Assembly: GCA_021199475.1 (NCBI GenBank) | Contig: JAJQHZ010000106.1 | Coordinates: 1 to 40,421, forward strand | DNA: 40,421 bases | Origin: Lachnospiraceae bacterium | GTDB lineage: Bacteria > Bacillota > Clostridia > Lachnospirales > Lachnospiraceae | Reading direction: 5' to 3' | The notes under the pieces: generated by a model | Told to the model about the DNA's origin: nothing | The model's database searches: none | Seen by the model: the letters and a program-made list of their open reading frames with translations, nothing else | Made by a program: the position numbers and the translations under genes | Shown here: piece after piece, positions 1 to 8,682 of the stretch | How positions within the stretch are numbered: position 1 is the first letter of the stretch | Layout of the letters: every line of letters begins with the position of its first letter

Positions 1-89
1 AGACTAAATTCAACTTGCATCCCTTCAGAGTGGAATTTACTTTTTCACTTCAGCCCCACAAAAAATTTTTTGAAAATCTTAAAAATACG

Positions 90-118
90 TTGACTTTGAA
101 GCCATCTTTGCATATAAT
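90..118 (+). promoter_or_regulatory. Sigma-A-type promoter of abiF-like RNA 1
   Basis: TTGACT at 90-95 and TATAAT at 113-118 are separated by 17 bp, a near-consensus housekeeping promoter. Transcription would start near 125, just before the structured RNA and about 85 nt ahead of the Abi_2 reading frame, so the RNA and the gene probably share this promoter. Confidence 0.8.
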
Positions 119-124
119 AACGCT

Positions 125-180
125 AACAGGACTCCCCACACCTCTCACTTAGTGATGTGTCCCATGGGGAGACATTTTTT
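125..180 (+). ncRNA. abiF-like structured RNA upstream of Abi_2 gene (copy 1)
   Basis: The segment folds as nested stems: CTCCCC 132-137 with GGGGAG 166-171, ACAC 138-141 with GTGT 157-160, and TCAC 145-148 with GTGA 152-155. GGAC 129-132 can also pair with GTCC 159-162, which suggests a pseudoknot. A T-run at 175-180 follows the outer stem, so part of the transcript may terminate here. An abiF RNA motif upstream of Abi_2-domain genes is known from comparative genomics, and position and architecture match it. A second copy of the same sequence class lies at 5977-6025. The assignment is by context and recalled motif, not by a covariance search. Confidence 0.65.
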
Positions 181-208
181 TGCTTTATTTAAGAAAAGGA
201 ATTGATGT

Positions 209-1114
209 ATGGATTCCAGAGATAATTCAGATGCTTCAAAAGAGAATACCACTGTGCCTGTAAAGCAACCGAAAAGTTATGATGAACAGGTGGCTCATAT
301 AGAAAAGAAAGGTTTTATTATTGATGATAGAGAATCTTGTGCTATGTTTTTACACAAGGCAAATTATTATCGACTTTCAGCTTATTTTCTACCATTCAGA
401 AAAGGAGATGGGACTTATTTTCCCAATATCAGATTTCAGCGGATTCAGAGGATATATGAATTCGATGGAAAGATAAGAAACTTTCTGTTCAAGTGCATCG
501 AAGAAATTGAACTTTATCTTAGGTCACAGTAATCTTACTACAGTGCTCATCATCATGGTCCTTTGGGGTATCTGGAAAAAGATGTGTTTTCTGAGAGACA
601 CGACCAGGATCGCTTCCTTGAACTTGTAAATAGTTGTATAGAAGAAAATAAAAGAACGCTTGTTGTTAAGCATCATAAGGAAAAATATTCCGGGCAATTT
701 CCGATTTGGGTTATTATTGAATTTTTCTCAATGGGAATGTTGTCTTATTTTTATGCCGACATGAAAACTAATGAGCAAAAAGAATTGGCTAAAGAATTAT
801 ATGGAACAACAGTCGCATGTTTAAAAAGCTGGCTTCGCTGTATTACTGTTCTACGAAATCGCTGTGCTCATTATTCAAGGCTTTATTATTGGTCATTCCC
901 AGCATTGCCCAAAATGCCAGATAACATAAGCTTCACTGCAAACCGGAGACTTTTTACACAGGTTATGGTTATTAAATTTCTATATCCGGAAAAGGATAAA
1001 TGGAACGCAAACGTACTGACTGAATTAGAAGCTATTATTGAAGAATATAGAAAAGATATTTCATTAAAACACATTGGTTTTCCAGACAACTGGGTAGATT
1101 TGCTGAGATACTAA
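209..1114 (+). pseudogene. Abi_2/AbiF-type HEPN abortive-infection gene with in-frame TAA
   Basis: The reading frame from ATG 209 (AAAGGA ribosome binding site at 195-200) encodes about 301 codons typical of the Abi_2 family, but codon 108 is TAA (530-532). The same frame continues without shift to 1114. The downstream half holds RNRCAH at 854-871, an RxxxxH motif characteristic of HEPN RNases. Upstream of the stop the protein has the usual family signatures (YYRLSAYFLPF, IEEIELYLRSQ). The paralogue at 6212 has a leucine where the stop lies, so a one-base TTA or TTG to TAA change fits. Loss of the HEPN half should inactivate the protein. Sequencing error, readthrough or reinitiation cannot be excluded from sequence alone. 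Confidence 0.8.
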
Positions 1115-1150
1115 TCAGTTTGTGTGGAAAAATAGAAGGAAGGTGATTTC

Positions 1151-1813
1151 TTGTCGCAGCTTGATACATATAGAAATACTATGCTTAGAAAACAAGAGGA
1201 CATAGTTAAATTGAATCAGGATTTGGCGAAGGAGTAGGCTAAGATAGCAGATTTGCAAAAGAAAATTATATCAGCCCAAAGCGCTATTGGACGAACGAAG
1301 AATCAGTCTACCATAAAATTAAGGCGGAATGACATTGAACGTGCAAATAAATCAATCGCAGATGCGCAAAAAAAATGTGGTGACATACAGAAAAAAATAG
1401 CTCAAAAAGAAAAAGAAAAGGCAACTGCTGAAAAGAATTATAGAAATGAAGAAGCTAAATTAAACAAGAAGAATATGGAAGCAGAGAAAAAACGTCAACG
1501 AGATGCGGCTCAGCAGACAGCGGAACTTGAACGTTCCATAAGGGAATATGGAAACACTCAAACGCAAATGCAAATGGAGATAGAAAAGCTGAAAGCTATT
1601 CCTGAAAAGATTACTGTCCTGTTTCTTGCTGCAAACCCAGGAGACACGCCGAAGCTTTCTCTTGATGAAGCAGCACGCTCTATACAAGAAAAAATTCGGC
1701 TTTCAGAATATCGAGATTCAATTAAATTTGAAACTCGTTGGGCAACACGATCATCAGATATATTGCAGGCAATCAATGAAACAAATCCAAGGAGATTATC
1801 ACTGCACTCGTGA
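1151..1813 (+). pseudogene. Coiled-coil/CHAT-like gene, in-frame TAG and truncated 3' end
   Basis: The frame begins at TTG 1151 after a GGAAGG site and reads SQLDTYRNTMLRKQEDIVKL. A TAG stop at 1235-1237 replaces one codon (CAG would give Q), then the same frame runs to 1813. The N-terminal two thirds are a Lys/Glu/Ala/Gln-rich coiled coil. From about 1606 the sequence (ITVLFLAANPGDTPKLSLDE, then SIQEKIRLSEYRDS and RWATRSSDILQAINETNP) matches the start of a CHAT-type caspase-like domain that follows coiled coils in known Firmicute proteins. The expected His and Cys catalytic segment is absent because the frame runs into another gene at about 1788. It lies 36 bp after the Abi_2 gene and may have been cotranscribed with it. 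Confidence 0.7.
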
Positions 1814-2897
1814 AGAGGTTCTGGGAATGCTCAGAGATGAACCACAGACCTCGATGGATGCAAAAATCCTTGAAGACTGGTCAATAAAAGATTTGAATAA
1901 GGAGTCTGTACAGGCGTATCGTAATCTGCATAGAAGCTGGAGACCGGGCCATGTTTGGGAAATGCTTGGAGATGAGGAATATCTAAAGAACATTGGAGCG
2001 GCCGCTGAATCAAAAAAGGATGGTAAAATGCATCCTACGGCAGCAGGTTTGCTCATGTTTGGAAATGAGTATGACATTGTTCGGGAATTTCCGCATTATT
2101 TTCTCGATTACCGCGAAGTGCTTGACCCAACAATAAGATGGACAGACAGACTTCAATCATGCTCTGGAGATTGGTCTGGTAACCTTTTTGATTTCTTCTT
2201 CCGCGTCAACAGTAAGCTTGTGAAAGATGTGAAAATTCCATTTGTGCTTGACGGTGCGATGAGAGTAGATGATACCCCTGTACACCAATCTATCCGTGAG
2301 GCACTGGCAAACTGTCTTGTAAACACAGATTTTTATCTATCGAGGGGTGTTGTCATTAAGAAAGATGCCGAGACGATTGTTTTTGAAAATCCAGGTAGTA
2401 TTCGGACAGGAAAGGCTCAGATGTTGAGAGGTGGGATTTCTGATCCGAGAAATGCGTCGATTTTGAAAATGTTGAATCTGATTGGTATAGGCGAGAGAGC
2501 TGGAAGCGGAGTTCCTGATATTTTTGCTACCTGGGACCAGCAGGGGTGGAAAGAACCAGAGGTAGAAGAGCAATATGGTCCTGACAGGACGATCCTAACG
2601 TTATCGTTCATCAAAAAAGAGGTGGCGAAAGGCAATAGCGAAAATGAGAACATGGTCAGTGACCATGTTAGTGACCATGTTAGTGACCATGATGACAGCT
2701 ATGAAGACAAAAAACATCGTCTGCAAGAATTTTGTACAGTACCGAGAACCAGACAAGAGATGCAGGACTTCCTGGGAATAGCAAGTAGAGGCTATTTCTC
2801 AAGACGATTTATCGTACCAATGGTTAATGAAGGAAAACTTAAACTAACGATACCAGATAAACCCAAAAGCCGTAGTCAGAAGTATATAAAGGCTTGA
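1788..2897 (+). pseudogene. 5'-truncated AlbA_2/Schlafen-type ATP-binding transcriptional regulator-like gene
   Basis: From GDYHCTREEVLGMLRDEP (1791 on) the frame reads about 369 residues of the AlbA_2 (divergent AAA) family. Landmarks are TAAGLLMFG, REALANCLVNTDF, VVIKKDAETIVFENPGS, IRTGKAQMLRGGISDPRN and GERAGSGVPDIF, the GHKL-like part. A winged-helix-like C-terminus follows (LGIASRGYFSRRFI). The N-terminal AlbA_2 domain is missing: the gene joins the coiled-coil/CHAT gene out of frame at about 1788. No ribosome binding site precedes the retained part, so it is probably not translated as an active protein. A three-unit VSDH repeat sits in the linker. Confidence 0.75.
2655..2690 (+). repeat. 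Three 12-bp tandem units encoding VSDH
   Basis: GTYAGTGACCAT occurs three times in a row (2655-2666, 2667-2678, 2679-2690), giving VSDHVSDHVSDH in the linker of the AlbA_2-type protein. The unit is a multiple of three, so copy changes keep the frame. Similar VSDH/VSDQ repeats are common in linkers of this family (recalled knowledge). Confidence 0.9.
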
Positions 2898-2957
2898 AAT
2901 TCTGATATTGCAGTTGAAAATATGTAGAGTATAAAAGATTTTTTGGAGAAAAATAAA

Positions 2958-3837
2958 ATGGAAGTAGTATCAGATTATTTGGCGGGCCTTGGGCTTGATG
3001 TTATCAAGGATTCTGCGGAAAAAAAGATTGATGAAGCTAAACTGAAAAATAAGCTTAAAATCTTTATTGAAGGACAGCGAAAATATAATGAAGTCTGTTC
3101 TTTAGCAGAAGAGTGTGACTTTCAAGGACTTATCGAGTTTATCTCTGATAATTTGATGGACATGGTAAAGACAAGATTTAGGTCAACTAAAAGCAAAGAA
3201 CGTAGCCGAGCGAGGGAGGAGATTGCTGCTGCAGCTGTCCTATATTCGTCAGCTAATACAGAGGAAGCAAAGAAACGGGTTGGTAGACTGGTTGAAAATA
3301 GTTTGGATATTGTTAGTGCTTTTTTTTAAGAGAAAGATTCGCTTGGAAGATTATTATCTGGCAGCAGAAGTGGTGGAAGCTGTAAAAGAAAACACAGATG
3401 AAACCGCTGAAAAGATGGCAGGGAAGGTAATTCAGACTGTAGTAAGTACAGGTGATGAGACAAATCGTTCTATCAATGAATTGTCTCAGAAAGTAGAGAA
3501 TCTTGAAAAAACAATCGCTACGGGTTCGCTCTTTTCCTTGGATCGAGCGTCTGCATTGCTTCAACAAGGACAGTATTCAGGAATAGAGTCAGGAATTAAA
3601 AAGCTTTTAGATCATATATCTGTAGAACATCCGCTTTTTCCAAAATACGGATATGGATTTGAAAATAATAAATTGAAAAGTATTCCACTTATGGAAAGCG
3701 CAACAAAATTGTATCCACCTAAATATCGTTTCACAGGGACGATTTGTGCGGGAGATCATTATTTTAATGACCCAAGTGTAAATCCTCTGGATTATGCGTA
3801 CCGGCATCAAGTATCACTTGTGCTTAGAATACCATAA
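2958..3837 (+). pseudogene. Uncharacterised gene split by a +1 frameshift in a T8 run
   Basis: ATG 2958 follows GGAG at 2945-2948. The first frame ends at TAA 3327-3329 after SLDIVSAFF, directly in a run of eight T (3320-3327). Removing one T joins it to the next frame (KRKIRLEDYYLAAEVVEAV), which runs to 3837 and gives about 293 residues. The protein has helical, charged segments and a coiled-coil stretch (SINELSQKVENLEKTI). I do not recognise the family; it resembles N-terminal parts of larger defence-associated proteins, but that is a guess. It ends abruptly (VSLVLRIP) next to a hairpin and remnants of other genes, so the 3' end may also be lost. The shift could be a mutation, a sequencing error or a slippage site. 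Confidence 0.6.
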
Positions 3838-3844
3838 CAGGCAT

Positions 3845-3881
3845 AGCCCGTTTGATTACACATATCGTGATCAGACGGGCT
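3845..3881. repeat. Long hairpin at a gene-remnant junction
   Basis: AGCCCGTTTGAT (3845-3856) is complementary to ATCAGACGGGCT (3870-3881) with one G-U pair and a 13-nt loop. No T-run follows in either direction, so it is not a standard terminator. It lies between the frameshifted unknown gene and the pRiA4b ORF-3-like remnant. Its loop contains ATCGTGAT, also found in the hairpin at 4412-4450. Confidence 0.7.
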
Positions 3882-4017
3882 GAATGTCTTGGATGACTGC
3901 GGCGGACTTCATGGATATTTGAATATGCTGGAGACCATAAACGGGGATGATAAAGAAGAAGCGGATGATATGAAAGCGTGGGCGAGGGGGCCTTGGCTGG
4001 ACAGGCCGGAAAAGTAA
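3871..4017 (+). pseudogene. 3' remnant of a pRiA4b ORF-3-like gene
   Basis: The frame 3871-4017 reads LDDCGGLHGYLNMLE followed by an acidic helix with EADDMKAWA. This is the C-terminal signature of plasmid pRiA4b ORF-3-like proteins (family ending in DCGG.xGY..LL and a W near the end). Everything N-terminal is missing and no start or ribosome binding site is present. It is a fragment left by deletion, between the hairpin and the Fic remnant. Function of the family is unknown to me; members are often found near mobile elements. Confidence 0.55.
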
Positions 4018-4070
4018 GCCTGGAAATATGCTGTAAATCTTCTGCAAATCCCCTGAAAATCTTCTCTGGC

Positions 4071-4397
4071 TATGATGCAACACCATTCATTCGCTATATG
4101 TTGAAAGTTATTCTGGCATGTTATATGGAATTTGAGGAACGAGTAGGACTTGTTGGGAAGGTTGGAGTAAGAAGTTCAGCTTACGATGTGGTTAAGACAT
4201 ATGTTTCCGGCAAAGTAGGAAAGTTTACAAGCGCGGAAGTGATTGCGTCCTGTCCGAGTTTTGGACGTTCAGCAGTTATGGCAGCAATAAAACGCCTTGT
4301 AGAGGAGAAAGAAATTATTAAAATTGGGACAGGAAGAGCTACTTGTTATGTCAGAACGGATTCCTCTGACGAGGATTATTTTATTCAGCCCAACTAA
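4071..4397 (+). pseudogene. C-terminal remnant of a Fic-family gene
   Basis: From 4071 the frame reads YDATPFIRYMLKVILACYME, then FEERVGLVGK and a winged-helix tail (VGKFTSAEVIASCPSFGRSA, RLVEEKEIIKIGTG). It aligns by eye with the last 110 residues of the intact Fic protein at 7639-8682 (DPTPFVKYILGVVLSAYRDF, IGKFTKSEIMELVPSVGKAS). The catalytic HPFxDGNGR motif and the N-terminal inhibitory motif are absent, so this is only the C-terminal arm plus HTH. The preceding sequence in the same frame (SLEICCKSSANPLKIFSG) is unlike Fic proteins and marks the deletion junction. Confidence 0.7.
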
Positions 4398-4411
4398 AAT
4401 AGTGGTTAAAA

Positions 4412-4450
4412 GGTTCTGTCATGTAATCGTGATGATCACACGATAGAACC
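4412..4450. terminator. Hairpin between convergent Fic remnants
   Basis: GGTTCTGTCATGT (4412-4424) pairs imperfectly with ACACGATAGAACC (4438-4450) around a 13-nt loop containing ATCGTGAT. It lies between the 3' end of the Fic remnant (4397) and the convergent frameshifted Fic gene (ends 4497). Position suggests a bidirectional terminator, but no T-run follows, so this is an inference from location. Confidence 0.4.
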
Positions 4451-4496
4451 CTGTAATAAGCACTTAGGAGAGTGCTTAGAAAGAATGGAATATCGC

Positions 4497-5650
4497 TTAC
4501 ATATCCTCACGGAGAATATTCAGATACTGCTCGTAAGAATACACTTTAGCTCTGTTTTCTTTTGAGTTTTCCTGAAGAATACCAATGTTGCAAAAGTCTG
4601 TGACATATCTTGCAACCGTATTGTATGCCATATTAAGAGCAGAAGCTGTTTTCTGAATCTCGATGATTGGATTTTGCTCAAGATATGAAAAGAGCTGCAT
4701 GGCGTTTTTCCTGGAGCGGGTTCTGAAGGAATCATCGATAAGCTTCTGGTTACTGTCATGAACTCAGACAGCAGATCAACTGTCCGAATGGCATCTTCGG
4801 CAGAGACAGCAACTGCACGGAGGAAGAACTTAACCCATTGTTCATAGTCTCCTGTTCGCCTGACTTCAGACATACGATCATAATACTCGATGCGATTCTG
4901 CTTGAGGTACCAGGAGAGATAAAGTGCGGGTGAGGAAAGCAAATGGTTCTCCATCAGGTAAAGCGTGATAATCAATCGACCGATTCGTCCATTGCCATCT
5001 AAAAAGGGGTGGATTGTCTCGAACTGGTAATGAATCAGTGCTATACGGATCAGATGATCAATGGTGTCTTCTGCATTGATGAATTGTTCCAGGTCTGACA
5101 TGGAGTCAACCATATCCTGGGGGTTCGGCGGAATGTAGCGAGCATTTCTTAAGGTACTGCCCTGCCCACCAATCCAGTTTTGGGGATATCGAAATTCACC
5201 GGGATTTTTTTCCTGACCGCGGACGTTTTCCATCAGGACAGCATGGGTTTCACGGATCAGTCGATTACAGAGAGGCAGAGACTTAAGGCTTTCCACAGCA
5301 TAATTAACAGCACGAATGTAATTGATAACATCAGCTACATCTCGATTTGCGTTTTTGTCTAACAATGGGTCGAGAATATCATCCAAGGTAGCCTGTGTGC
5401 CCTCAATCTGTGATGAAAGAAGTGCTTCTTTCCGAACACACATAGACACAAAGAGCTGCATATTCGGGATACGTTTTGAAAGTCCATCGAGAAGAGTTAG
5501 CTGGCTGTGTGCAGATATTAATAGCTGCGTCATTTCATCGTCGATGTTTATCTGAGGGTTTGGAGGCAGAGGAGTGGGGAGAAACGACTGATAAGCCATA
5601 TCTCCGGATAAGTTTGTAACAAATTTCCCGGCACGAGTTCTATTGTCCAT
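4497..5650 (-). pseudogene. Fic-family protein AMP-transferase with a 1-nt frameshift
   Basis: The frame from ATG 5650 carries an N-terminal Fic_N-like segment, an inhibitory S..IEG motif (SSQIEGT) in its first 100 residues, and the catalytic loop HPFLDGNGRIGRL. Fic proteins transfer AMP or other phosphate-containing groups to protein side chains; a class II-type N-terminal inhibitory helix is expected here. Near 4758-4762 one base is missing after DLLSEF: the intended continuation is in the next frame (DSNQKLIDDSFRTRSRKNAM, a helix-turn-helix tail, ending at 4497). With the base restored the protein would be about 384 residues. As read, the catalytic domain is intact but the DNA-binding tail is replaced by unrelated residues ending at 4520. 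The gene has its own promoter and paired operator-like repeats. Confidence 0.8.
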
Positions 5651-5678
5651 TGAGAAACCAACCTTTCTGTAAACTTGT

Positions 5679-5741
5679 GAATTTGAAATTACAGACTATA
5701 TTTTAAACGGACCATTTCAGAAAGTCAATCGAATTTGAAAT
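5679..5741 (-). promoter_or_regulatory. Promoter of the frameshifted Fic gene, bracketed by direct repeats
   Basis: On the minus strand TTGACT (plus 5723-5728) and TAAAAT (plus 5700-5705) are 17 bp apart. The 11-mer ATTTCAAATTC occurs twice in direct orientation: just upstream of the -35 (plus 5731-5741) and downstream of the -10 (plus 5679-5689). Their starts are 52 bp apart, close to five helical turns, as expected for a repressor binding both sites on one face. The HTH tail of the Fic protein is a candidate autoregulator (inference). Confidence 0.65.
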
Positions 5742-5844
5742 AAAGAATCGAGGCGTATTTCATGTTTGCTTGCAAAAATGAAATTAAAAAACTGAAAGAT
5801 GGCAAGCAACCGGAAAAAGTTTCTGATCGAAGAGCAGACCAGGC

Positions 5845-5979
5845 CGGACACGAGTAATCCTGATCAGAATGTTTGAGTATGCGATGATGGTGGCACGGAA
5901 TTCCGGTGTTGAAGAAGACAATGTGTTGAAGGTCGAGTTTCCGAACTGCGCGGTGTTAAAATGGTATAATACAAAGTAA
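5845..5979 (+). pseudogene. C-terminal remnant of an Rpn/PD-(D/E)XK transposase-like nuclease
   Basis: The frame ending at TAA 5977-5979 reads VILIRMFEYAMMVARNSG, then EDNVLKVEFPNCAVL. This is the conserved C-terminal part of the Rpn family (typically ..ILIRIFEYdtqiAl..vefP.saVLyLR). The upstream half is missing or frame-shifted (an IEEQTRPDT stretch lies in another frame). The last codons overlap the -10 of the orphan abiF-like RNA. A second remnant with the same VLKVEFPNCAVL block lies at 7349-7558, so the Abi_2 locus between them is flanked by Rpn debris. Confidence 0.65.
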
Positions 5980-6025
5980 CAGGACACCCCGTACCTATCG
6001 TTTGCTGATGTGTCCCAGGGGAGAC
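5965..6025 (+). ncRNA. Orphan abiF-like RNA (copy 2)
   Basis: TATAAT at 5965-5970 precedes a sequence close to copy 1. Shared blocks are AACAGGAC then CCCC, ACCT.TC, and TGATGTGTCCCA then GGGGAGACA. The outer stem CCCC 5987-5990 with GGGG 6018-6021 is kept, as is GGAC 5982-5985 with GTCC 6011-6014. No good -35 is spaced 17 bp upstream. No Abi_2 frame follows directly; the next features are a separate promoter and a different abiF-like RNA. It is either an orphan antitoxin-like RNA or a decayed leader of a lost Abi_2 gene. Confidence 0.5.
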
Positions 6026-6093
6026 AGTAAAGAAATTGTCAGATTATTGCTCTTGTTCACAGAAAATTTACAAAGCGTTTTTTGCTGATTCCA

Positions 6094-6122
6094 TTGACAT
6101 TTTCGGCTCAATTGAGTATAAT
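6094..6122 (+). promoter_or_regulatory. Promoter of abiF-like RNA 3 and Abi_2 gene
   Basis: TTGACA at 6094-6099 and TATAAT at 6117-6122 with a 17-bp spacer form a perfect consensus promoter. Transcription should start near 6129, at the beginning of the structured RNA, about 83 nt ahead of the Abi_2 start codon. Confidence 0.85.
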
Positions 6123-6128
6123 AACAAT

Positions 6129-6196
6129 AACCGAACCCGCCACGCCTCTGGTTACCCTTGTGGGTTTCTAAGCGCAACCCGGCGGGACTTTTTATT
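6129..6196 (+). ncRNA. abiF-like structured RNA upstream of intact Abi_2 gene (copy 3)
   Basis: An outer stem CCCGCC 6136-6141 pairs with GGCGGG 6181-6186. Inside it CGC 6143-6145 can pair with GCG 6172-6174, and ACCC 6154-6157 with GGGT 6162-6165. The segment CCACGCCTCT matches CCACACCTCT of copy 1, but the stems differ in sequence, so it belongs to a distinct specificity group of the same architecture. A T-rich tract (6189-6200) after the outer stem may terminate part of the transcripts before the ribosome binding site at 6201. The assignment to the abiF motif is based on architecture and on the adjacent Abi_2 gene. Confidence 0.65.
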
Positions 6197-6211
6197 TTTT
6201 GGAGTAATGTC

Positions 6212-7123
6212 ATGACACCGTATCCTAAGCAAATTTTAAATATAAATCAACAACTACAATCATATATTGACGCAGGAATGGTGATTCCCTCTCACGATGA
6301 AGCAATAAATGCTCTTGAAACTATAGGTTATTATCGGCTCAGAGGTTATTGCTATCACCTATATGATAACAGCACAAAGAAATATAAAAATGGCACTTCT
6401 TTCTCTGATGTGTTAGCACTATATCATTTTGATACGGAGCTTTCACATCTTCTGTTTTCACTATCGGCAGCAATAGAAGTGTCTCTGAGGGTAAGGTTGT
6501 CTGATTCACTTTTATCCGTGTATAATGATGCGCTTGCTTTATATGATCCTGCCGTTTTCAATAATAAAACACTGTATTGGAGAAATATCGGTACACTTTC
6601 CGGAGAAATCGCCCGCTCTAATGATGTGTTTATACAACATAATTTTGATAATCATGACGGTCTGGTTCCGATATGGGCAGCAGTTGAAATTATGTCTTTT
6701 GGAAACCTGTCAATGACGATAAAAAATCTTAAGACGGGGAAGGGCAGTACATCTCAGAAATTACTTTCACATTATCATTTTACCAGTCAGAAAGGGAAGA
6801 AGGTTACCCCATCGCTTCAGATGTTTACTTCCTGGACACAAGCCGTGTCTGTTCTCAGAAATATCTGTGCTCATAATGGAAGGATATATAGTCGTGCATT
6901 GAATACACATGTGCAAATCCCGGCTGTTGATGCACCAAGCAATCCCGGAAAATATAGTGGGGTTTATCAGATTGTGTTGGCTATGAAATATCTGCGCCCT
7001 TCCGATGATGTGTGGAACGGTTTTGTGTCTGACTTAACAGGACTGCTCCAAAAGTATGGCAGTGTTGTTGATTTGAGTAAGATAAATTTCCCGCCGGACT
7101 GGTCAAAACATATGACAGTCTAA
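6212..7123 (+). CDS. Abi_2/AbiF-type HEPN abortive-infection protein
   Basis: ATG 6212 follows GGAG (6201-6204) and gives 303 residues, a usual length for Abi_2 proteins. Signatures are an N-terminal IGYYRLRGYCYHLYD block, PIWAAVEIMSFGNLSM near residues 153-168, and RNICAH at 216-221, the RxxxxH motif of HEPN RNases. Family knowledge: Abi_2/AbiD/AbiF proteins act in abortive phage infection, and AbiF-type HEPN proteins are proposed to work with the upstream RNA as toxin-antitoxin-like pairs related to the origin of Cas13. Here the RNA, a consensus promoter and the gene form one compact unit. The frame is intact, in contrast to the paralogue at 209-1114. RNA-guided or RNA-inhibited nuclease activity is an inference from the motif and context. 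Confidence 0.85.
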   Translation: MTPYPKQILNINQQLQSYIDAGMVIPSHDEAINALETIGYYRLRGYCYHLYDNSTKKYKNGTSFSDVLALYHFDTELSHLLFSLSAAIEVSLRVRLSDSLLSVYNDALALYDPAVFNNKTLYWRNIGTLSGEIARSNDVFIQHNFDNHDGLVPIWAAVEIMSFGNLSMTIKNLKTGKGSTSQKLLSHYHFTSQKGKKVTPSLQMFTSWTQAVSVLRNICAHNGRIYSRALNTHVQIPAVDAPSNPGKYSGVYQIVLAMKYLRPSDDVWNGFVSDLTGLLQKYGSVVDLSKINFPPDWSKHMTV

Positions 7124-7348
7124 ACAGGGAAAAATTAGCTGAATATTTTTCGGATTGGTACATATAAATAATATGACCGAACCAATCAAGCCTCTCAACG
7201 ATGCTCAAACCGATTGGACGTCAATAAGGGGTGGAGGAGACTTCATCCCTTTCTTTATGTCTGCGTCTTGTTTATTAAGAAGTTCTGATACAATATTCTA
7301 CAAAATTTGCATTTTATGGGTGACAACCTGCAATATCTGTGGTAGTAT

Positions 7349-7558
7349 ATGCGTGCCGGGGATGCGTATGATAACGTTTATCGGACACTGTTGAATGACT
7401 GTCCACAGCTTCTGATCCCGCTTGTGTATGAGATTTTTCATGAACACTTTACAAAGGATGATAAAGTCGTATTTTCGAAAGACTTACATATAGTGAAGGT
7501 GCTGAAGGTCGAATTCCCGAACTGTGCGGTGCTGTTTTTGAGAGAACCAAAATTTTGA
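7349..7558 (+). pseudogene. Internally deleted Rpn/PD-(D/E)XK transposase-like gene
   Basis: The frame starts MRAGDAYDNVYRTLLNDCPQ and LIPLVYEIFHEHFTKDD, the N-terminus of Rpn-family recombination-promoting nucleases. It then jumps after VVFSKDLHI to VLKVEFPNCAVLFLREPKF, the C-terminal strand block. The central catalytic region (the ..LECQS..D. and IRIFEYD segments) is deleted in frame, leaving 69 residues, so it should be inactive. No clear ribosome binding site is seen. It is followed by a strong terminator. The 7124-7348 gap before it shows no recognisable gene. Confidence 0.65.
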
Positions 7559-7564
7559 AAAAAG

Positions 7565-7640
7565 ACCCCTGTGGTAGTTTTCCGGGATGTTGCCCCGTTT
7601 GCAGCGGTGAGCCGGATTTCTGCCAAAGGGGTTTTTTTTT
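7565..7640. terminator. Bidirectional terminator between Rpn remnant and Fic gene
   Basis: ACCCCTGTGG (7565-7574) pairs with CCAAAGGGGT (7623-7632) with one mismatch. A run of nine T follows on the plus strand and an A-run precedes (T-run on the minus strand). It serves the remnant on the left and the convergent Fic gene ending at 7639. Confidence 0.75.
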
Positions 7641-8682
7641 AATTTCGCGTGTAAAATGTCCCTTTCCCTTTGCCATGCCGCGTCAAAAACCCTTCGTCTA
7701 CGAGCTTTTTCAGCGAATTTTCTACGGACGCCTTTCCGACACTCGGAACAAGCTCCATAATCTCGCTCTTTGTGAATTTTCCAATTTTCTCAGTTGTCGC
7801 ATTTCTGACCAGTTCGATAGCGGGCAGTTTCTCATCCACAAGGCTGACGCGGTTTTCAAAATCACGGTACGCCGAAAGCACAACTCCTAAAATGTATTTG
7901 ACAAATGGAGTAGGATCGTTTGTCCCTTCGTGCCAGTTTGCACCGGCTTGCTCAAGCACATCGTAGTAGGTGGCTTTTGTTTTTTCAATCTTGCTTTCAA
8001 TGCTGATATAACGACCAACAACATAGCCACACTGGTAATGAAGTAGCGTGGTCAGAAGTCTCGACATTCTTCCATTCCCATCGTTGAATGGATGGATGCA
8101 AAGAAAGTCATTAATGAAAATGGGGATCAGCACGAGCGGATCAACAGTGCAGGCATCGATTGCCTGGTTGAAACTTGTGCAGATGGCGTCAACTGCGTCC
8201 GGTGTTTCGTAGGGGGCGAGAGGCATGAAGCGGACAAACTGCGTACCATCTGCATGTGTCTCGGCAATAAAATTCTGTGTGTTTTTGAACCTTCCACCGA
8301 TGGCTTTCTCGGAATACTTGTACAGATCCCTGTGCAATTGCAGAATGTAGGATGCACGGATAGGAATGTACTCGTAATTTTCGTGGATGGTGTTCAACAC
8401 AGCACGATATCCGAGAATCTCCTCCTCATCCCGGTTGCGGGGTGTGGTTTTTTCGTTGCAGAGCTGCTGTATCCTGGTGTTGGTAGTCACGATTCCTTCA
8501 ATCTTATTGGATGCCTCGGTGCTTTGGATTTTTGCGATTTCCACTAGCTTATCAAGGACTGTCGGCTTCTGTTTCAAAAACATCTCCTGGCGTCCTTTGA
8601 ATTCGTGTATCTGTGCAACAAGCCCAAGCGTCTCGCTGTCCCACTGCCTTGATGCAAGCTGCGTGTAATCAAATGTTCTCAT
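7639..8682 (-). CDS. Fic-family protein with C-terminal winged helix
   Basis: The 347-residue frame from ATG 8682 is full length. It has the class II-type inhibitory motif (STEASNKIEGI near residues 54-64), the catalytic loop HPFNDGNGRMSRLL near 197-210, and a C-terminal winged-helix region (KIGKFTKSEIMELVPSVGKA). Fic enzymes transfer AMP or related groups from nucleotides to Ser, Thr or Tyr of a target protein; the inhibitory glutamate should keep it off until released. The target is unknown. It is transcribed alone from a strong promoter surrounded by TTAGG/CCTAA sites, so autoregulation through the winged helix is plausible. It is intact, whereas the Fic gene at 4497 is frameshifted and a third copy at 4071 is only a tail. 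Confidence 0.88.
   Translation of the reverse strand: MRTFDYTQLASRQWDSETLGLVAQIHEFKGRQEMFLKQKPTVLDKLVEIAKIQSTEASNKIEGIVTTNTRIQQLCNEKTTPRNRDEEEILGYRAVLNTIHENYEYIPIRASYILQLHRDLYKYSEKAIGGRFKNTQNFIAETHADGTQFVRFMPLAPYETPDAVDAICTSFNQAIDACTVDPLVLIPIFINDFLCIHPFNDGNGRMSRLLTTLLHYQCGYVVGRYISIESKIEKTKATYYDVLEQAGANWHEGTNDPTPFVKYILGVVLSAYRDFENRVSLVDEKLPAIELVRNATTEKIGKFTKSEIMELVPSVGKASVENSLKKLVDEGFLTRHGKGKGTFYTRN

Follow-up and report, generated by a model that had tools for sequence, protein, structure and literature searches.

The first 7 kb of contig JAJQHZ010000106.1 from a Lachnospiraceae bacterium (GCA_021199475.1; 40,421 nt, the whole of which is called here the window, and to which all coordinates of RNA copies and genes refer) very probably represent what is left of a defence island with a pair of AbiF modules, i.e. 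HEPN RNase toxins of the Abi_2 family whose activity small structured RNAs would silence, as in type III toxin-antitoxin (TA) systems. Module A consists of an RNA (copy 1) and a broken toxin gene (gene 1), with an additional, probably decayed RNA (copy 2), and module S is intact, with its toxin gene (gene 3) placed between two RNAs (copies 3 and 4). Direct support comes from the architecture of the RNAs, their covariation, the family of the toxins, the match between RNA class and toxin clade, and the conserved order of the flanking elements.

Two AbiF-type modules in the window

The Rfam abiF model, our own models and reading of the sequence together revealed four abiF-type RNAs in the window, all on the + strand. 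An earlier note on this DNA had listed three; copies 1 and 3 are structured RNAs with the abiF layout as it proposed, and a fourth (7182-7218) had been overlooked. The abiF-type architecture comprises an outer stem of about 6 bp, an inner stem of 3 bp, a loop, and a single-stranded bulge of 5-6 nt on the 3' side between the inner and the outer stem, which reads UCCCA in the class represented by copies 1 and 2 ("class A"), CAACCC in copy 3 and CAAACC in copy 4. With covariation taken into account, this architecture is seen in class A and in the downstream RNA of module S, and weakly in the upstream RNA, while copy 2 has one mismatch in the outer stem. The Rfam search at gathering thresholds over the whole window returned a single match, RF03085 (abiF) at 7182-7218 (copy 4), with 50 bits against a threshold of 37. 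With relaxed thresholds (positions 1-8500) copy 3 was found at 6136-6187 (34.8 bits, E 0.0021), but neither copy 1 nor copy 2 was among the matches even at E<=10, so that the check proposed in the earlier note gives one sub-threshold match for its three sites. The same model at E<=0.001 finds in the entire genome only the same two matches (copies 3 and 4). When the single sequences of copies 1 to 4 are folded, their z-scores (-1.13, -0.73, -2.41 and -1.03, respectively) are not decisive; the case for structured RNAs rests on homology and covariation.

In module A, copy 1 with its T-tract (125-181, +) is matched with 53.4 bits (E 6e-12) by R1, our model of class A, which was built from 14 short-loop sequences, none of them from the window. 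Its promoter (90-118, +; TTGACT, a 17-nt spacer and TATAAT) scores 11/12, the score being the number of hexamer matches out of 12, for which shuffled sequences average about 7.2. The stem is followed by the T-tract and then by Abi_2 coding sequence, namely gene 1 (209-1114, +), both parts of which are matched by Pfam Abi_2 and PADLOC AbiD, and which is broken by one internal stop codon (TAA, in frame, at 530-532). An RNxxxH motif can be read in its second part, which is 86% identical to locus L115 of the A clade; the close relatives L007 and L008 carry, ahead of the Abi_2 gene, an RNA that differs little from copy 1. Contig C100 of the same genome has a third Abi_2 match, which is short.

Copy 2 (5965-6026, +, with the RNA at 5978-6026 and TATAAT at 5965-5970) belongs to the same sequence class as copy 1 (R1 43.1 bits, E 3e-9) and has no Abi_2 gene of its own, as the earlier note had stated on both counts. 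The T-tract attributed to it is absent, however, and its outer stem carries an A-A mismatch, there is no good -35 element, and the promoter scores 8/12. Copy 2 is therefore, to judge from its sequence, probably an extra class-A RNA that has decayed, and its interpretation as a functional orphan is the less likely one. On contig C91 of the same genome (16592-16636; L175:1501-1545) we observed an intact-looking class-A RNA with no Abi_2 nearby, with a promoter score of 11, an outer stem that is changed yet paired, and a T-tract; its neighbors read like pilus genes.

In module S, a promoter at 6094-6122 (+; TTGACA, 17-nt spacer, TATAAT; 12/12) precedes copy 3 (6127-6196, +), supported by our own alignment, whose outer stem and T-tract resemble a terminator. 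Gene 3 (6212-7123, +) is intact and encodes 303 amino acids with an Abi_2 domain (Pfam E 1e-44; PADLOC AbiD) and an RNxxxH motif; residues 3-299, including the RNxxxH region, match the PDB chain 8vz6, "Abi family protein" (E 9e-23). The characteristics of an AbiF/Abi_2 HEPN toxin, i.e. the Abi_2 domain, RNxxxH and homology to PbAbiF, are all present in gene 3, and gene 1 is broken; the Abi_2 genes announced for both sites are there as coding sequence, and only the one behind copy 3 remains whole. Copy 4 (7177-7219, +) follows the toxin gene, and after it a possible terminator hairpin (7226-7253, +) can be recognized by eye. Copy 3 is not a module with one RNA but half of a conserved RNA-toxin-RNA module that it forms with copy 4.

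On either side of module S there are two Fic-domain genes (PADLOC SoFic; 4520-5650 and 7639-8682) on the opposite strand, as well as the two units of a 36-nt direct repeat (86%; 5920-5955 and 7496-7531) that look like leftovers of one gene type.

Conservation of the RNAs and their association with toxin clades

A search with the gene 3 protein in 392 genomes of the order (E<=1e-20) returned eight places with at least 52% identity, its own gene included, and the others do not exceed 34%. After loci with the same protein had been merged by the last 120 residues, which was done before the S-clade and tree counts, the order RNA-toxin-RNA was found in 12/12 intact loci of this "S clade" (the window, L026, L027, L029, L031, L032, L033, L035, L042, L130, L132 and L135), with the downstream RNA lying about 30-115 nt past the stop codon of the toxin. 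Of the two broken S-clade loci, L136 retains the downstream RNA and L043 shows none. The 12 downstream RNAs, copy 4 among them, were used to build model R2. At E<=1 the model found 25 matches in 73 sources, of which 13 are downstream RNAs and 12 are upstream ones, and all fall in the 14 S-clade sources; it is not independent of these matches, as 12 of the 13 downstream ones are building members and L136 is the exception. In the 392 genomes (E<=0.01) R2 gave 14 matches, i.e. nine above 47 bits, three of the upstream type and two weak ones. Eight of the nine are the S-clade loci, seven of which had served to build R2, and the ninth is in genome G507, in which the toxin between the RNAs is reduced to fragments matching residues 1-23 and 271-301. 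Of two S-clade loci searched with Rfam at gathering thresholds, L130 gave a match for its downstream RNA (43.3 bits) and L135 did not. The downstream RNA appears to be limited to the S clade, as judged with R2, which would miss unlike RNAs; a generic descriptor tried on other Abi_2 clades proved too loose (9/57 hits versus 3.2 expected from shuffles, and 5/12 in the S clade itself). As separate observations, L020, outside the S clade, shows by eye an RNA of another type after the Abi_2 stop codon, and at L212:1501-1540 a weak R2-type abiF RNA (28.8 bits) follows a gene for a peptidase resembling, on reading, a phage lysin, in a genome where no Abi_2 was found.

For the second part of gene 1, matches were found in 62 of 299 genomes of the family, its own included. 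The pattern AACAGGACTCCCCNCACCTCTC, which represents the 5' half of copy 1, has exact matches in 49 loci of genome contigs and six of viral contigs; according to the record titles these come from many Bacillota and from a small number of Spirochaetota, Synergistota, Actinomycetota and other groups, with several metagenome bins among them. In 16 of the pattern loci the Rfam gathering search did not find the class-A RNA, and as there is no Rfam match for copies 1 and 2 either, membership of class A in RF03085 is unsupported. Plasmids yielded no class-A match at E<=1e-3, and phages yielded two records, one (L171) with an Abi-like open reading frame (ORF), as judged by reading, and one (L172) without. 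The latter, on a fecal phage contig (3000-3044, 61 bits), is a class-A-like RNA just before tRNA-Gly and terminase genes, and no Abi_2 could be read among the ORFs.

In the class-A alignment (77 matches, 58 of them distinct, the 14 R1 sequences included), which was fitted to the structure, 99.4% of cells are paired, and five of the nine pairs are changed on both sides, in 32 cells, a level reached by 0/500 shuffles; sliding the partners destroys the pairing. The downstream RNAs were aligned with MAFFT, without the structure being used in the fitting, and here 99.1% of cells are paired and nine cells are changed on both sides (0/500 shuffles as high).

The type of RNA follows the type of toxin. 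In a maximum-likelihood analysis of 71 Abi_2 proteins, seven RNA labels assigned by sequence patterns required nine changes on the tree versus a mean of 37 for shuffled labels, and 0/200 shuffles were as low. All 29 class-A rows fall within one group of 32 rows (support 99/98), and the 12 S-clade rows form another (100/100). Gene 1 is not on the tree, its pieces being too short, and 19/71 rows were left unassigned by the patterns, including four S-clade rows whose RNA was recognized by eye. Because near-copies make labels cluster, the count of changes is supportive only, and it lends indirect backing to the earlier suggestion that RNAs of different classes have distinct specificities.

Several observations weigh against the interpretation of these elements as AbiF modules with structured antitoxin RNAs. 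By a score of at least 37 only copy 4 qualifies as a member of RF03085, and copies 1, 2 and 3 do not. The fitting of the class-A alignment to the structure biases it towards that structure, and the number of further pair types is unremarkable both in class A (reached by 288/500 shuffles) and in the downstream RNA (497/500). Only a modest number of pairs in the latter are altered on both sides (3/10, reached by 28/500 shuffles), and the upstream RNA covaries only weakly (1/9 pairs changed on both sides). The promoter of copy 4 is unconvincing (8/12), so that this RNA may be inactive or may originate by cleavage of the toxin mRNA. Finally, the Abi_2 types of L030 and L034 are accompanied by other upstream RNAs.

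Class-A RNAs without a toxin gene

Among the 55 class-A RNAs found with the pattern, 28 have an Abi_2 ORF, detected with our own profile, that begins within 300 nt. The 28 include short ORFs (109 amino acids in L087, 126 in L111) and some cut by contig ends (e.g. L098). The 27 remaining RNAs comprise seven undecidable cases, six close to the end of a contig and L088, which is followed by masked sequence, and 20 toxinless ones, each followed by at least 1.1 kb of sequence. In tblastn searches with Abi_2 proteins, N-terminal remnants of the toxin were recognized in two of the 20 (L110 and L123); matches of L111, whose ORF was read through the RNA, were set aside, and weak ones in L097, L106, L113 and L120 were taken as chance. 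The 20 orphans are about as well kept as the linked RNAs: promoter scores average 10.3/12 (range 7-12) and 9.96, respectively, with poor promoters in only two orphans (L077, 7/12; L113, 8/12), a T-tract is present in 20/20 and 27/28, and 13 conserved positions of the 3' half show 1/260 and 1/364 substitutions. Selection by an exact 5' half favors young copies, hence well-kept orphans are in themselves no proof of selection.

A survey of the 392 genomes with R1, free of the 5'-half pattern though sharing at least three loci with its set (G263:C52, G027:C16 and G060:C105), gave 29 matches in 22 genomes, 14 of them before Abi_2 and 15 not, with similar scores (medians 37.3 and 43.1 bits, p 0.50). 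Two of the 14 precede genes in pieces (that of copy 1 and that of L182). The 15 unlinked matches lie in ten genomes and include copy 2, the RNA on C91, three in G195 and two in G532. The latter two lie 303 and 582 nt before the contig end, which cuts a third copy, and PF07751 was not found in this genome, which is 76% complete; the locus (L174:1501-2082; G532:C151) looks like an array of three or more class-A RNAs in tandem, all with promoters, in which the loops are changed and the pairing, by eye, is kept. In G195 (L198, L191) we observed three class-A-like RNAs and no Abi_2; two of these RNAs lie on either side of small genes that resemble, on reading, a HicAB pair. A search for another shared partner gene behind the orphans (13 survey matches on 11 contigs, and the pattern set) revealed by reading many kinds of genes and no common family, the profile library having been applied only to neighbors at the phage site described below.

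Some class-A RNAs occupy a site between TerS and HNH genes of phages (gene identities were assigned by Pfam for L128 and by similarity for the rest). The viral contigs L125, L127 and L128 have the order TerS, RNA, Abi_2, HNH, with the RNA and Abi_2 opposite to the phage genes. In the prophage-like L086 and L094, from bacterial genomes without PF07751, the order is TerS, RNA, HNH, with no toxin. The viral contig L123 has the RNA, equal to that of the toxin-keeping L128, and a remnant of the toxin. An RNA in a phage genome without a working toxin is found, accordingly, in L123, L086 and L094. Trees of both TerS and HNH join L123 with the toxin carrier L128, and the small trees disagree on L094, since TerS joins it with the toxin carrier L127 and HNH with L086; by these trees there were probably two or more losses of the toxin, one in L123 and one or two in L086 and L094. 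A collection of 160 viral loci, obtained via relatives of HNH or TerS and with some contigs counted twice, contains 14 loci with Abi_2 and four (on three contigs) with class-A RNA, and the sole RNA without Abi_2, L297, is on the same contig as L123. Ten further loci and L328 have Abi_2 without an R1 match, and the six of the ten that were inspected by eye all show another type of RNA. The region between TerS and HNH has the look of a cargo site, as another AbiF type with its own RNA is found there in L302, L305, L314, L321, L324 and L325, and elsewhere other cargo or none.

What are the solitary RNAs? The reading that they are leftovers has about an even chance of being correct: a toxin can be lost freely, the antitoxin cannot go first, and the RNA that remains drifts. 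In favor of it are the toxin remnants in L123, L110 and behind an S-type RNA in L203, the short end fragments of the toxin after L192 and L194, and short matches after L178 and L197; copy 2, too, shows the decay expected. Less easily reconciled with drift is the fact that 18/20 orphans have no accepted toxin remnant and yet retain the RNA, the T-tract and mostly the promoter. Moreover, between L086 and L094 the RNA is conserved above the flanking genes (44/45 identical positions for the RNA and 82/88 for the 88-nt cassette, versus 269/360, or 74.7%, for HNH and 313/537 nt, or 58.3%, for TerS), and the spacers cannot be aligned; if the RNA had diverged by 22% (HNH: 25%), at most one difference in 45 positions would have P = 2e-4.

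A tentative alternative is that solitary RNAs are selected as antitoxins or decoys, which would neutralize AbiF brought in by, or already residing on, other mobile elements and spare the toxinless phage or host; judging by their sequences, it is plausible that they act as decoys. This reading would explain the state of the 20 orphans, the contrast between the RNA and its surroundings in L086 and L094, and the identity of the L123 and L128 RNAs despite the toxin of L123 being mostly gone, and it has precedents in pseudo-ToxI (PMC5086642) and RNA anti-CRISPRs (PMC10651486). On the other hand, the good condition of the orphans is subject to the bias towards young copies, and the promoters of L077 and L113 are poor; the single pair L086/L094 is all that tells selection from recency, and transfer of a cassette between phages could explain it. 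Furthermore, L123's own RNA is the only one without Abi_2 among the 160 viral loci, and PF07751, although present in six of the 20 orphan records, was found neither in the one viral record nor in 13/19 orphan genomes (completeness unstated), where a target would not be at hand. A DNA region of phage sk1 reportedly protects phage 712 from AbiF, to go by a cited title; for an abiF motif in sk1, Rfam gave no match at E<=5, and R1 and R2 none at E<=10. The proposal in the earlier note of an orphan RNA as antitoxin or decoy for AbiF was right in kind and probably wrong for copy 2, which looks decayed; class-A RNAs without a toxin are common elsewhere, e.g. on C91 and in the three cases at the phage site. 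The more far-reaching idea that solitary class-A RNAs are widespread RNA anti-defence genes against rival AbiF, i.e. antitoxin mimics that phages and chromosomes retain once the toxin is gone, combined with control of the S-clade dimer by two different RNAs from the two sides of its gene, we consider doubtful. That the RNAs serve solely as attenuators, i.e. 5' regulatory elements, of Abi_2 genes, with no antitoxin role, is very improbable, for although their upstream location, the T-tract before the start codon and a partial effect in cis of RCd22, a related C. difficile RNA, agree with it, the downstream copy in all intact S-clade loci, the solitary copies and the activity of RCd22 in trans do not (both effects according to PMC12373285).

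Proposed mode of action and comparison with known systems

By analogy with RCd22-AbiFCd and PbAbiF-AbiFr, the abiF-type RNAs described here are most likely AbiF antitoxins. As the characteristic arrangement of type III TA systems, an RNA gene with a promoter and a predicted terminator before the toxin gene is found for copies 1 and 3 (promoter score, stem and T-tract), whose consensus promoters had been correctly recognized in the earlier note; tandem antitoxin repeats before the toxin are absent, and the S clade has one motif on each side. We propose that the upstream RNA would be transcribed from its own promoter and mostly stop at its own terminator, so that it would exceed the toxin mRNA, which would arise via read-through. 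The RNA would then bind the HEPN dimer with the single-stranded bulge facing the active site, and keep the RNase blocked until the balance is disturbed by infection. The dimer of module S may have a different RNA at each of its two sites.

Both the family and the way it works are already known, and it is the clade with paired RNAs and the well-kept toxinless RNAs that appear to be new. The downstream partner RNA was not met in the accessible part of PMC12373285, and no other paper searched contains the phrase "abiF motif", the 2017 description of the motif and the primary PbAbiF paper lying outside the search; solitary abiF RNAs or decoys are not named in the literature searched, which leaves aside most subscription papers.

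Among the characterized systems, RCd22-AbiFCd of C. difficile phi027 (PMC12373285), in which the antitoxin RNA neutralizes the toxin by direct binding, resembles the modules described here in the Abi_2 HEPN toxin with RNxxxH and in the upstream structured RNA with promoter, terminator and abiF motif; it differs in having two motifs in one upstream transcript, whereas the gene of the S-clade module has a single motif on each side. Class A differs from it as a stem/bulge type invisible to the Rfam abiF model. With respect to RF03085, copy 4 is a member by score and the other copies share the layout, copy 3 falling just below the threshold and class A being undetected. According to a review (PMC12737573), 8VZ6 is the complex of PbAbiF with its noncoding RNA, in which a dimer binds one RNA per monomer and is inhibited via the single-stranded bulge; gene 3 encodes a homologous toxin, around which, unlike in PbAbiF-AbiFr with the one RNA type described there, two RNA types are found. 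In the same source Cas13 is said to descend from AbiF, and the CRISPR RNA to have its forerunner in the RNA of AbiF. A subclass missed by Rfam, a toxin clade with two RNAs and frequent toxinless RNAs provide material for studying the co-evolution of RNA and toxin specificity, and the last raise the question of whether phages deploy them against AbiF. Like pseudo-ToxI of phiTE and RNA anti-CRISPRs (PMC5086642 and PMC10651486), those found in phages are RNA mimics of a defence RNA; the activity of pseudo-ToxI and of RNA anti-CRISPRs has been shown, theirs would be presumed, and they seem to be left over from whole modules. If selected as decoys, solitary class-A RNAs would be the AbiF counterpart of pseudo-ToxI and RNA anti-CRISPRs.

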